The position numbers and the translations under genes were made by a program. The notes beneath the pieces were generated by a model. That model had not been told where the DNA came from, made no database searches, and was given only the letters and a program-made list of their open reading frames with translations. A stretch of 43,912 bases of DNA from an uncultured archaeon (lineage in GTDB: Archaea > Hadarchaeota > Hadarchaeia > Hadarchaeales > WYZ-LMO6), in contig CALJER010000026.1 of the NCBI GenBank assembly GCA_938074535.1, forward strand, positions 1 to 43,912, given 5' to 3'. This document shows positions 14,469 through 19,963 of this stretch, piece after piece. Each line of letters opens with the position of its first letter. Within the stretch, counting starts at the first letter, position 1.

Positions 14469-14535
14469 CACCCTCCTTGGAGGAAGTGCTTATTAGTTTA
14501 ATCTCCGGGGAGGCCTCCTTTTTTTGGCGCACACC

Positions 14536-14541
14536 TATAAA
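14536..14541 (+). promoter_or_regulatory. TATA box for the ion-channel gene
   Basis: TATAAA lies 30 nt before the ATG at 14566. It sits inside the upstream in-frame extension that begins at TTG 14524, which argues that translation does not start there. AAAGGAG lies between the box and the ATG. Confidence 0.6.
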
Positions 14542-14565
14542 TCGAGGCCGGAGGGAAAGGAGCTG

Positions 14566-15489
14566 ATGGGACGGTACTTGCTGCCGGCACTTCTCCTGAT
14601 TCCCCTCCTGCTCTGGGGTCTGGGCAGCCCGGTGGCGGGGGAGGAGGCGCCGGCCAGGGTGAAAGTGGGAGTCTGGATAAACGCCATCGAGAAGGTGGAC
14701 GTGCCCTCCCAGACCTTCACCGTCGACTTCTACGTCTGGTTCAAATACACGGGGAAGAAACCCGACATCGAGTTCCTCAGAGGGACCCCCACCACCGTGA
14801 GCCTCATCCGGCAGGAGGAAAGGGGGGGAGAGAACTACCTGGAGTACAGGGTCAAGGGTGTTTACGTGAGCTCCCTGAACTTCAGGAACTTCCCCTTCGA
14901 CGAGCACCTCCTCACGGTCGAACTGGAGGACAAGCACCGAGGGCTCTCCGAGCTGGTCTTTGAACCCGATGTGGAGGAAAGCGGCCTGGATCCCAACCTC
15001 ACGGTTCCTGGCTGGGAGGTGAAGGACTTCAGGCTCTGCACGGATCAGCACGTCTATCCGGACGAAAACTACTCCAAGTTCATCTTCGGGGTCACGGTAT
15101 ACCGCTCGAAGATTTCGGCCTTCTTCAAGTACTTCTTCCCCATTCTCATCATCACCCTCATCTCCCTCCTCACGTTTTCCCTCTCGGTCAAGAACTTCGG
15201 ACAGAGGGTGGGGATCTGCGTCACCACCCTCATGTCCGCGGTGGCCTACCACCTGGCTGCTCTGAGCGGCCTCCCCTCCCTGGGATATCTCACCCTCTTC
15301 GACCGGATCATGCTGGTGATCTACACCCTTTTCCTCTACAACCTGGGGGTTTCGGTCCAGGCGATGAGGCTGGTGGAGGCGGGCAGGGTGAAGGAAGCGG
15401 AGGGTTTCGAGACCAGAATGCAAAATCTCCTGCCCTTCCTGACCCTGGGGCTTTTCCTCGTTTACGTGCTTGTCCTCGGTCTGCTCTGA
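14566..15489 (+). CDS. Pentameric ligand-gated ion channel homologue (Cys-loop family)
   Basis: 307 residues. Residues 1-24 are a signal peptide. An all-beta ligand-binding domain spans about 28-183 and includes FRNFPFDEHLLTVELED (107-123), the FPFD motif of prokaryotic channels. It lacks the paired loop cysteines, like other microbial members. Four membrane helices follow: TM1 186-206, the pore-lining TM2 211-231, TM3 242-266 and TM4 287-307. TM2 starts GQRVGICVTTLMSAVAYHLAAL and is followed by LPSLGYLTLFDR, as in bacterial homologues. The TM3-TM4 loop is short. The ligand and ion are unknown. The gene stands alone between glnA and a Nudix gene, and its 3' end overlaps the convergent Nudix gene by 28 bases. 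Confidence 0.9.
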   Translation: MGRYLLPALLLIPLLLWGLGSPVAGEEAPARVKVGVWINAIEKVDVPSQTFTVDFYVWFKYTGKKPDIEFLRGTPTTVSLIRQEERGGENYLEYRVKGVYVSSLNFRNFPFDEHLLTVELEDKHRGLSELVFEPDVEESGLDPNLTVPGWEVKDFRLCTDQHVYPDENYSKFIFGVTVYRSKISAFFKYFFPILIITLISLLTFSLSVKNFGQRVGICVTTLMSAVAYHLAALSGLPSLGYLTLFDRIMLVIYTLFLYNLGVSVQAMRLVEAGRVKEAEGFETRMQNLLPFLTLGLFLVYVLVLGLL

Positions 15490-17731: not shown

Positions 17732-18154
17732 TTAAATACTTTTCTCCCCCTCCCTCCTCAGGGCCAGGAGCATCCTCCTCTGCAGGTTCTCCTGCACCTC
17801 AAGCGGAGTTTTCCTTCCCTTCCGCATGTCGAGGTAATCCGCCAGATCCTCGAGCACCAGCTCCGCGATTTCCTCTTCCAGCAGCCCCAGGTAGAGGGCA
17901 AGCTCCAGCGTGTAGAAGGCCCGCATCAGCCTCTCCTTCCCCCTCTTCCACCTCTTCCAGGCCCCCGACCTCCCCATGTTCACTTTTCTGGCAATTTCCT
18001 CGAAGCTTCTGGCCCTTTCTGAGTAGTACAGAAGGAGAATTTGGAGGGTTTTTTCGTCCAGCAGGGATTTTTTGAGGAGTATTTTCGCTAAGGGGCTTTT
18101 TTTTACTTCCTTTATTCCGTAATCATTTTTTCTCTCCGCCGTTTTCTCCCTCAA
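17732..18154 (-). CDS. Small helix-turn-helix protein, putative transcription regulator
   Basis: 140 residues, all-helical and charged. I do not recognise the family. Residues about 49-75 (RSFEEIARKVNMGRSGAWKRWKRGKERL) look like a helix-turn-helix of the sigma-region-4 or MarR/TrmB kind. A helical C-terminal part (LELALYLGLLEEEIAELVLEDLADYLDM) could be a dimer interface. The start is a TTG at 18154; no ATG or GTG is available nearby. A TTAAAA box at 18171-18176 and a 7-bp palindrome at 18180-18200 lie directly upstream, suggesting autoregulation. It is divergent from a second regulator at 18429. Confidence 0.7.
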   Translation of the reverse strand: MREKTAERKNDYGIKEVKKSPLAKILLKKSLLDEKTLQILLLYYSERARSFEEIARKVNMGRSGAWKRWKRGKERLMRAFYTLELALYLGLLEEEIAELVLEDLADYLDMRKGRKTPLEVQENLQRRMLLALRREGEKSI

Positions 18155-18179
18155 AAAGATGTTCCTTTCTTTTTAATAG

Positions 18180-18200
18180 TGTTTCCATTATCAGGAAACA
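18180..18200. promoter_or_regulatory. Palindromic operator candidate upstream of the small HTH gene
   Basis: TGTTTCC (18180-18186) and GGAAACA (18194-18200) form a perfect 7-bp dyad around 7 nt. It touches the upstream edge of the minus-strand TATA-like TTAAAA (18171-18176). A dimeric regulator here would block or recruit TFB at the BRE. Confidence 0.55.
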
Positions 18201-18315
18201 AGCGCACTAAGGAACAAAGAGCGCTGGTCTGGCGTGCGAACCTGGGGTTCCATGTTCTCTTTCTGGGTGCATGCCGGAAGCGGTGAGGGACAAAGCTTTT
18301 AATGCAGGCCGCAAG

Positions 18316-18414
18316 CCTACTTTTGTAGGAAAAAAGCCTACAAAAGTAGGATGCGGGCCTACAAAGGTGCAGGAAGAAATCCTGCACTTGTAGGCTTTTG
18401 TCCTACTGCGTAGG
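18316..18414. repeat. Array of five tandem palindromes, about 21 bp apart
   Basis: Five units of the form CCTRC-N3 to 6-GYAGG follow one another: 18316-18329 (CCTACTTTTGTAGG), 18337-18350 (CCTACAAAAGTAGG), 18358-18373, 18381-18394 and 18402-18414 (CCTACTGCGTAGG). Centre-to-centre steps are about 21, 22, 22 and 20.5 bp, two helical turns, so all sites face the same side. Units 1 and 2 are exact reverse complements, as are most of units 3 and 4, so larger hairpins can also form. The array ends 14 nt before the ATG of the HTH/AAA+ pair. A TTTTAA box at about 18297-18302 lies just upstream, so the array could be operators over the start site, an iteron-like binding array or a structured leader. 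Confidence 0.9.
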
Positions 18415-18428
18415 CTGGGGGCCGTCGG

Positions 18429-19004
18429 ATGAAGATAGCCGGGTTCTTCCCCTCGGAGATGCGGGTGGAGATGGTGCGGGAGATGGTGGAGAAGATGGGG
18501 ATCCGCCCGGTTTCCAATTCCATAGGGGTGAACTCCAAAACCGTCTACAAGTACAAGCTGGGGGAGGCGGTTCCTAGGGACGAGACCTTTATCCGGCTCC
18601 TTGAAGTTCTGAGGGAGAAGGACCCGAACACCTTCTGGGGGTATGTGGAGAAACTCCAAAGGGGGTTCGAGGAGGCCCTTTCCTCCTTGAAGAGCGGGGG
18701 GGAAAGGGGGTCCAAAGTTTCACGGGCAGGGGAGACCCAGTTCCCCCTCCAGGAGGCCGGGGAGGTGTCTAGGTTCGAGGTCTACGAAAGGCTGGGGATA
18801 GAGAACCCCTCCGAGCGGGTGAGGCTGGCAAGGGTTCTTTCCTTCCTAGCCACATGTACCGAATTCGGGGCGGAGGAGCTGGAGGAGAGGGTGATGCTTC
18901 CCAGGGATGAAGCGGAGGAGTACCTCAGGAGGCTGGTGCAGCATGGGCTCTTGGAGAGAACCAAGGAAGGGGTTTACAGGGTGAGAATCAGATGCAGGCT
19001 GTGA
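18429..19004 (+). CDS. HTH protein with C-terminal winged-helix-like region, partner of AAA+ ATPase
   Basis: 191 residues; family not recognised. The N-terminal ~60 residues (PSEMRVEMVREMVEKMGIRPVSNSIGVNSKTVYKYKLGEAVPRDETFIRLLEVL) resemble an XRE-type helix-turn-helix used to read short palindromes. A polar linker (about 85-115) follows. The last ~75 residues (NPSERVRLARVLSFLATCTEFGAEELEERVMLPRDEAEEYLRRLVQHGLLERTKEGVYRV) look like a winged helix with a beta hairpin. The five-palindrome array immediately upstream is its obvious candidate target. The stop lies inside the start of the ATPase gene, so both are co-translated. No strong ribosome site is seen before the ATG. Confidence 0.75.
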   Translation: MKIAGFFPSEMRVEMVREMVEKMGIRPVSNSIGVNSKTVYKYKLGEAVPRDETFIRLLEVLREKDPNTFWGYVEKLQRGFEEALSSLKSGGERGSKVSRAGETQFPLQEAGEVSRFEVYERLGIENPSERVRLARVLSFLATCTEFGAEELEERVMLPRDEAEEYLRRLVQHGLLERTKEGVYRVRIRCRL

Positions 19005-19963
19005 AAGGAGAGCGGGCCGGGCTGGAAGGCTTCGGGATGGACTCCTTTGAGCGCAGAAAGGCCTCCTTCTTCAGGAGGTGGGGCTGGAAGTTCCTTCCCT
19101 TTGCTCAGACGGACCCTCTTCCCCACCCCAGGCTCATGGTGCCGCACCAGAAGGAGGAGGTGGTGAAGCTGGTGGACCTCATAAGGGAAGGAGATCTCGT
19201 GACTTTTGTGGTTTCAGAGCTGGGGATGGGAAAAACCACCCTCTGTAAATACCTGTCTGAGGTCCTTCCCCTTCAGGATCCGCAGCTCCTGACGGTTTTC
19301 GTTCCAGCCCAGTCCGTACAGAGCCCGGAGCAGATGTTGCGCATCCTCCTGAACAGGCTGGAGATAGAAGCAGGGGGAGACCTCACCGAGGAGTTCGAGA
19401 AGTTCTACCGCTGGCATCAGGCCTACCCGGCATCCAAATTGGTCGTTTTTGTGGACGAGTTCCCCGAGCTGGATGTGAGGGTGGCGGAGATGATACGGGC
19501 GCTGGCTGACCTCAGGAACATCACCTGGGTCCTGAACGGGAGAAAGGATCAGATCCTGGGCTACCTGCGGGAGCACGTGCCGTCCCTCCTCAGCAGAAAG
19601 AGGTACATGTTGGAGATGAGGCCCCTCTCCCTGGAGGAAGTGCGTGAATTGCTTCTCCTGCGCATGGCCTGGGCGAGAGGGGAAACCAGCCCGAGGGGGG
19701 ATTCCCTTCTCCCCTTCACCCCCTCCAGCCTCAGGAGAATCCACAGGCTTTCCGGTGGGGTCCCTCGCGAGGTTCTGAGGCTGGCAAGCGAAGCGGTTTA
19801 CTCCGCCATAGAGAAAAACGCCACCAAGATCGAGGCCTCCTTGGTGGGGGGGAGGAAGAGGAGGAGCTCGAGGAAAAAGGTGAAGCGCAGGCCTAGGCCC
19901 AGGCGGAGGCGCGTCGGGAAGAGGAGGAAGAAGGCCAGGAGGTTCGGCTTTTTCGGGAGGTAG
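18992..19963 (+). CDS. AAA+ ATPase with an Arg/Lys-rich C-terminal tail
   Basis: Up to 323 residues. Walker A is SELGMGKTT (75-83, first Gly replaced by Ser). Walker B is VVFVDEFPE (151-159), sensor 1 is in WVLNGR (179-184), and a sensor 2-like arginine lies in GGVPREVLRLASEA (255-268). The order recalls Orc1/Cdc6, ExeA and TniB-type ATPases. A full winged helix after the AAA+ module, expected for Orc1/Cdc6, is absent. Residues about 288-323 are mostly Arg and Lys and end FGFFGR, so the tail probably binds nucleic acid. GTG at 19001 (overlapping the previous stop) and ATG at 19037 are alternative starts. A role in DNA maintenance, replication or transposition-like target handling is possible but unproven. 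Confidence 0.8.
   Translation: MQAVKGERAGLEGFGMDSFERRKASFFRRWGWKFLPFAQTDPLPHPRLMVPHQKEEVVKLVDLIREGDLVTFVVSELGMGKTTLCKYLSEVLPLQDPQLLTVFVPAQSVQSPEQMLRILLNRLEIEAGGDLTEEFEKFYRWHQAYPASKLVVFVDEFPELDVRVAEMIRALADLRNITWVLNGRKDQILGYLREHVPSLLSRKRYMLEMRPLSLEEVRELLLLRMAWARGETSPRGDSLLPFTPSSLRRIHRLSGGVPREVLRLASEAVYSAIEKNATKIEASLVGGRKRRSSRKKVKRRPRPRRRRVGKRRKKARRFGFFGR

Follow-up and report, generated by a model that had tools for sequence, protein, structure and literature searches.

Gene A, which encodes a small DNA-binding protein, and the overlapping gene B, which encodes an AAA+ ATPase, are preceded in the Hadarchaeota genome studied here by an array of phased sites that occupies the stretch from the TATA box to the start codon of A. 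We consider it probable that A, and separately the neighbouring gene C, autoregulates cooperatively through sites of this kind, and that A serves as the DNA adaptor of ATPase B. Since an array always stands before A-B and its sites change with the DNA-binding domain of A, we read the locus as a self-regulating, possibly chromosome-maintaining cassette.

The window, that is the whole stretch of 43,912 nucleotides that was analysed, makes up contig C26 in a Hadarchaeota assembly of 1.2 Mb, and Hadesarchaea isolate WYZ-LMO6 is a close relative of this genome. The A-B-C locus is part of a Hadarchaeota housekeeping region. On one flank it is accompanied by genes that we take from their sequences to encode glutamine synthetase, aspartyl-tRNA synthetase and Alba; the other flank carries AMMECR1 and TFB genes and a gene read as PHP. 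The protein encoded beside the glutamine synthetase gene, at positions 14524-15489 (plus strand), is similar to pentameric ligand-gated ion channels, with a Neur_chan_LBD match (E 7e-4) that falls short of the cut-off.

Of 28 Hadarchaeota genomes, 24 have gene B, among them every one of the 11 good-quality genomes. Gene C was detected with strong scores in 23 genomes of the phylum and nowhere else convincingly, while A and B are kept together and overlapping in nearly all A-bearing genomes. The sequences show that A, B and C form a conserved three-gene cassette, which appears to be chromosomal and vertically inherited. The first-pass annotation of this DNA had proposed the HTH/ATPase pair as a system, and the pair was recovered as described; the third gene and its own operator were absent from that reading. 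One assembly (G007) holds two cassette copies, L055 on its contig C24 and L051 on its contig C3; the one on C24 belongs to the g6 type and is perhaps contamination.

The A-B array and the predicted operator of gene C

The array had been described before as five phased CCTRC...GYAGG palindromes ending 14 nt before the HTH gene. The five copies were found again, with starts at 18316, 18337, 18358, 18381 and 18402 and the last one ending 14 nt before the ATG at 18429, but the register had to be changed. In the CCTRC...GYAGG register the inner spacers vary from 3 to 6, whereas GYAGG...CCTRC-like units from the four genomes of the window's family have an N7 spacer in 19 of 20 cases and N8 in one. 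Because the spacer is constant in this register and variable in the other, the unit is GYAGG-N7-CCTRC, 17 bp long and present in five exact copies and one degenerate copy; the palindromes described earlier are the variable joints between the true units. In unit 4 (GCAGG-N7-CCTGC) the change of both arms is symmetric only in the new register. The features of the locus are as follows.

17732..18154, minus strand: gene C, small DNA-binding protein with a sigma-70 region-4-like HTH (best member E 1.8e-6)
18170..18178, minus strand: TATA-like element of gene C, read directly, adjoining the C operator
18181..18199: predicted operator of gene C, GTTTCC-N7-GGAAAC
18296..18303, plus strand: TATA-like element CTTTTAAT of the A-B operon, read directly, its 3' edge abutting site 1
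18304..18320: array site 1, GCAGG-N7-CCTAC
18325..18341: array site 2, GTAGG-N7-CCTAC
18346..18362: array site 3, GTAGG-N7-CCTAC
18369..18385: array site 4, GCAGG-N7-CCTGC
18390..18406: array site 5, GTAGG-N7-CCTAC
18410..18426: array site 6, degenerate, GTAGG-N7-CCGTC, adjoining the start codon
18429..19004, plus strand: gene A, N-terminal XRE-like HTH (HTH_3 E 0.057) and C-terminal winged helix (TrmB 2e-5, IclR 2.6e-5)
18992..19963, plus strand: gene B, AAA+ ATPase (AAA_22; ORC/Cdc6-TnsC clade) with a 36-residue basic tail, overlapping A by 13 nt

Successive units start 21, 21, 23, 21 and 20 bp apart, and these distances of 20-23 bp correspond to about two helical turns. Within the window, five exact units were observed where 0.34 were expected and none of 100 shuffles reached five, so a chance origin of the array is excluded. 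The strict form GTAGG-N7-CCTAC occurs three times in the whole genome, each time within this array, and the genome-wide search for this strict unit revealed no second array. Both the array and its promoter position are conserved in all four genomes of the window's family. At the equivalent position, the three relatives carry the TATA-like elements CTTTTTAG, ACTTAAAT and CTTTAAT, and their arrays also begin at its 3' edge, with the exception of G001, which has an additional site farther upstream. The degenerate last site is retained in these relatives as well.

Gene C lies divergent from A in the window's family and downstream of B in the others. Its predicted operator is the only exact copy in the window genome and is conserved before C across the order. 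When the upstream DNA of 19 C genes was compared, 14 carried GTTTCC-N7-GGAAAC (counting the C gene of G001, whose called start falls inside the site) and five carried ACTTCC-N7-GGAAGT or a close variant, in which the change is mostly symmetric in both arms. The variant form precedes the C gene of G026. In five of six genomes searched the exact operator is present in one copy, always at C. Of the sites at the locus, this one is the clearest example of a putative self-operator, and it supports the same reading of the A array.

DNA-binding domains of A and their site motifs

All A proteins share the C-terminal winged helix (97.4%), and their N-termini differ. The XRE-like assignment of the window protein is weak at HTH_3 E 0.057, and its N-terminus has no significant relative among solved structures. 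Matches to MerR and HTH_17 were obtained for 16 of the 20 aligned A proteins; the remaining four are those of the window's family. For the MerR-like domain the best solved relative in profile searches is 6ama (E 7e-9), which we take to be BldC. A Foldseek search with the gene A model gave no significant match. The structure models were built from the window protein plus L002 only, a shallow alignment, and are poor (pLDDT 52 and 66). In part of the sister family (L039 7510-8307, L051 3182-3970 and similar A genes) the MerR-like HTH and the winged helix are separated by an HNH-nuclease-like domain; its motifs are intact in some genomes and decayed in G026 and G027, and the domain is missing in others.

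Every A gene found is preceded by a site array of its own, weakest in two genomes (G009 and G019). The palindrome array itself, whose presence upstream of every homologue had been proposed as a check, precedes A in the four members of the window's family; the other A genes have different phased arrays. XRE-like A proteins, with the recognition helix GVNSKTVYKY, go with the GTAGG/CCTAC palindromes. The MerR/BldC-like 'HPNT' proteins (xHPNTxRxW) go with 10-bp direct repeats of GTTAG (GTTA in the comparison of recognition helices), and the MerR-like 'KTI' proteins (xKTI(Q/Y)RW or CSVRTLQRR) with GACA repeats. In this way the type of DNA-binding domain predicts the motif for 23 of 23 A genes. In G009 and G019, both of the KTI type, GACA copies are present without clean 10-bp pairs.

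The 10-bp phasing upstream of A is evident for both MerR types, with lag-10 z = 7.8 for GTTAG (six representative genomes) and z = 10.9 for GACA (five genomes). None of 500 shuffles gave a signal as high for either type; the signal is repeated at lag 20, and neighbouring lags show nothing comparable. G021, G022 and G024 each contain a single GACA-N6-GACA-N6-GACA, which stands immediately before gene A. In another genome, perfect 20-bp tandem repeats TTGTTAGGAATGGTTAAGGA before gene A form an expanded array (L052 1-80, G006 C26).

Two members of genus g12 differ in both properties, G025 having KTIY with GACA and G026 HPNT with GTTA. On the B tree the labels for A type and motif need five changes where two would suffice, of which the starred branches force only two for each MerR type. 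This pattern suggests that domain and motif have switched together several times. Because they switch together, the A protein is the likely binder of its array, as the first-pass annotation had supposed for the HTH protein.

The sister-family A proteins and BldC, a MerR-like family of Streptomyces (PDB 6AMA, 6AMK), share the BldC-like HTH and promoter direct repeats phased at 10 bp. On direct repeats spaced by one helical turn, BldC binds in the form of head-to-tail multimers (PMC5859096), and the lag-10 signal places the sister-family sites at this same distance. In contrast to BldC, A has an additional winged helix, often an HNH domain too, and stands in an operon with an AAA+ ATPase. The BldC-like HTH is confined to the sister family, because the four A proteins of the window's family have no MerR match; the A protein of the window genome has an XRE-like HTH and palindromic sites.

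The ATPase and its relatives

All 21 aligned B homologues match AAA_22. B has intact Walker A (GMGKT) and Walker B (DE) motifs, R202, a G-x-P-R close to its end and, following a strand, an invariant N-G; we assign the roles of these motifs, with N-G presumably at the sensor-1 position, from what is known of AAA+ proteins. The Orc1/Cdc6/TniB-like core reported earlier was borne out by profile searches, in which the closest solved proteins of comparable extent were Drosophila Cdc6, Sulfolobus Orc1-1 and VchTnsC (E 2e-6 to 7e-6; 2qby E 7e-6 over 40-287, VchTnsC E 7e-6). Midasin outscores these matches, but across 82 positions only. Foldseek placed ORC proteins on top, from a weak model. B therefore has an initiator-type AAA+ core. 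It does not reach the cut-off of TIGR02928, and few B proteins of other genomes match that family, below cut-off. Two full Orc1/Cdc6 genes that do exceed it lie elsewhere in the window genome, on contigs C43 and C23.

The last 36 residues of B are a K/R-rich tail, confirming that a basic tail takes the place where relatives carry a winged helix. Only the window's family has a long tail of this kind; the B proteins outside it finish with a short basic-aromatic motif (FPFLR, LPFF or IFLRKR). In G009 the B protein (L044 6385-7335) has a C-terminal hydrophobic segment, possibly a membrane helix or anchor. The deep Hadarchaeota branch G004 has a B protein that keeps the winged helix (95%, hhalign) and has no gene A, whereas in the window's order B has lost the winged helix and A is present as a separate overlapping gene. 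That the winged helix of A is the displaced one of B could not be demonstrated (hhalign 2-48%).

Outside the phylum, small archaeal genomes encode orthologues over most of the length of B (profile E down to 4e-38; hhalign 99.9%), and these end in a winged helix. Upstream of B in 13 archaeal genomes outside the phylum, TTCAC/GTGAA shows the highest enrichment among 512 5-mers, with 46 copies against 6.7 expected (z 13.6); as the motif was found after looking, this is no more than suggestive. At least two copies are present in 10 genomes, and the spacing is often 10-12 bp. Among the few contigs studied in more detail, dense TTCAC clusters surround B and others lie elsewhere. One of these, on G113 C11 (171479-172368; L162 11479-12368), is a second dense TTCAC/GTGAA cluster 20 kb from the ATPase-winged-helix gene; it adjoins a small ORF, and the gene beside it we read as a family-B DNA polymerase. 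On G254 C4 (L190 1391-2296), about 0.9 kb upstream of the ATPase gene contains repeated TTCAC iteron clusters, larger than a promoter operator, and could be origin-like or regulatory. In other small archaeal genomes B lies close to genes for RPA, RadA and a PRC-barrel protein, and to one that we take to be DnaG.

Possible workings of the cassette

In the reading that we prefer, one A dimer would bind each 17-bp unit, cooperatively and every two helical turns, and in the sister family one protomer would bind each 10-bp direct repeat. Bound between TATA box and start codon, A would repress its own operon. It would also bring the co-translated ORC/TnsC-type ATPase B to DNA, supplying the specificity for which B's relatives carry a winged helix. 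C would control its own promoter through a single palindrome. We further infer that B may act on chromosomal DNA, with chromosome maintenance as its output. A five- or six-site operator exceeds the need of simple autorepression, and this counts against the preferred reading.

The same excess weighs on a simpler account, in which A simply represses its own operon in the ordinary way, the array serves transcription only and B is an unrelated passenger. The position of the array, the lack of a second one in the window genome and the same logic at C with a single site would all fit. We nevertheless regard this account as unlikely, since A and B stay together and overlapping in nearly all A-bearing Hadarchaeota genomes and B orthologues with a fused winged helix have a site array too.

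A bolder reading, which we put forward tentatively and think unlikely, is chromosomal DNA maintenance in which an exchangeable HTH adaptor recruits an ORC/TnsC-clade AAA+ ATPase to a single iteron array. This would be a fourth centromere-like or DNA-loading kind beside the ParA-, actin- and tubulin-based ones, with archaea having it either fused, as ATPase-winged helix, or split into adaptor and ATPase.

The cassette also invites comparison with Par-type partition. In TubZRC and ParMRC, iteron centromeres overlap the operon promoter, and the cassette has a like array overlapping the promoter of an operon for a small HTH adaptor, expected to autorepress, and an NTPase. In TubZRC the iterons upstream of the operon are the centromere; the adaptor, a small winged-helix protein, acts as repressor of the operon and also binds the NTPase by its C-terminal tail (PMC5016525). 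By analogy, A on its array could be a centromere-like complex that is moved or anchored by B as the NTPase, in keeping with one array per genome where tested and with the basic-aromatic motif that ends B in most genomes. However, B is an AAA_22 protein of the ORC/TnsC clade and not of the ParA, actin or tubulin type, it is encoded by a chromosomal core gene, and the adaptor motif changes rapidly. We rate a par-like or tethering role as unlikely, and the resemblance to TubZRC is a likeness in working, not membership.

Descent from a transposon target-selection module, with a TnsC-like ATPase and a MerR-type partner, is very unlikely. TnsC/MuB ATPases, which have the MerR-type CvkR as partner in V-K CAST, share with B the AAA+ fold, the size and an HTH partner; B resembles VchTnsC, and in the sister family A combines an IS607/MerR-like HTH with, in many cases, an HNH domain. 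Yet the resemblance to Orc1/Cdc6 is equally strong and the distribution across the phylum is vertical. In neighbourhoods across the phylum, which hold housekeeping genes, we recognised no transposase and no element ends. The cassette proteins had no phage match and two weak bacterial plasmid matches, with no full-length relative among phages or plasmids, and viral contigs gave partial matches only (26-27%). The mobile-element context considered in the first-pass annotation was accordingly rejected.

A replication origin at 18.3 kb, in which an initiator would bind the array, had likewise been raised and now appears highly improbable. Iterons beside an ORC-like ATPase, and the replication and recombination genes and TTCAC clusters near B in other archaea, would suit an origin, and Orc1/Cdc6 with its ORB repeats offers the closest solved folds, a winged helix in B's relatives and arrays near the gene. 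Here, however, B has no winged helix and true Orc1/Cdc6 genes lie elsewhere. As indirect evidence, cumulative GC skew in the relative G003 reaches its minimum at 366 kb, on the same side as Orc1 (318 kb), and the locus at 267 kb sits on a monotone skew slope about 100 kb away. We regard as equally improbable that the repeats act in RNA, as 5' leader hairpins that attenuate translation or bind a protein: folding of the leader is much stronger than that of shuffled sequences (z -7.6 to -9.3), but DNA palindromes fold by necessity, the G003 leader folds differently, the direct repeats of the sister family cannot fold likewise, and Rfam has no family above threshold.

We found no published description of the cassette in a limited search of the open-licence literature, and to our knowledge it is a previously undescribed system of the autoregulated HTH-adaptor plus NTPase type. 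Every well-assembled genome of this uncultured phylum of archaea has ATPase B, and remote relatives of it occur in other small archaeal genomes. The exchanges of DNA-reading domain and site motif that nature has made provide a ready-made code that is testable in vitro. If B acts on chromosomes, the clade of ORC/TnsC ATPases would have a third role, in addition to origin licensing and transposition.
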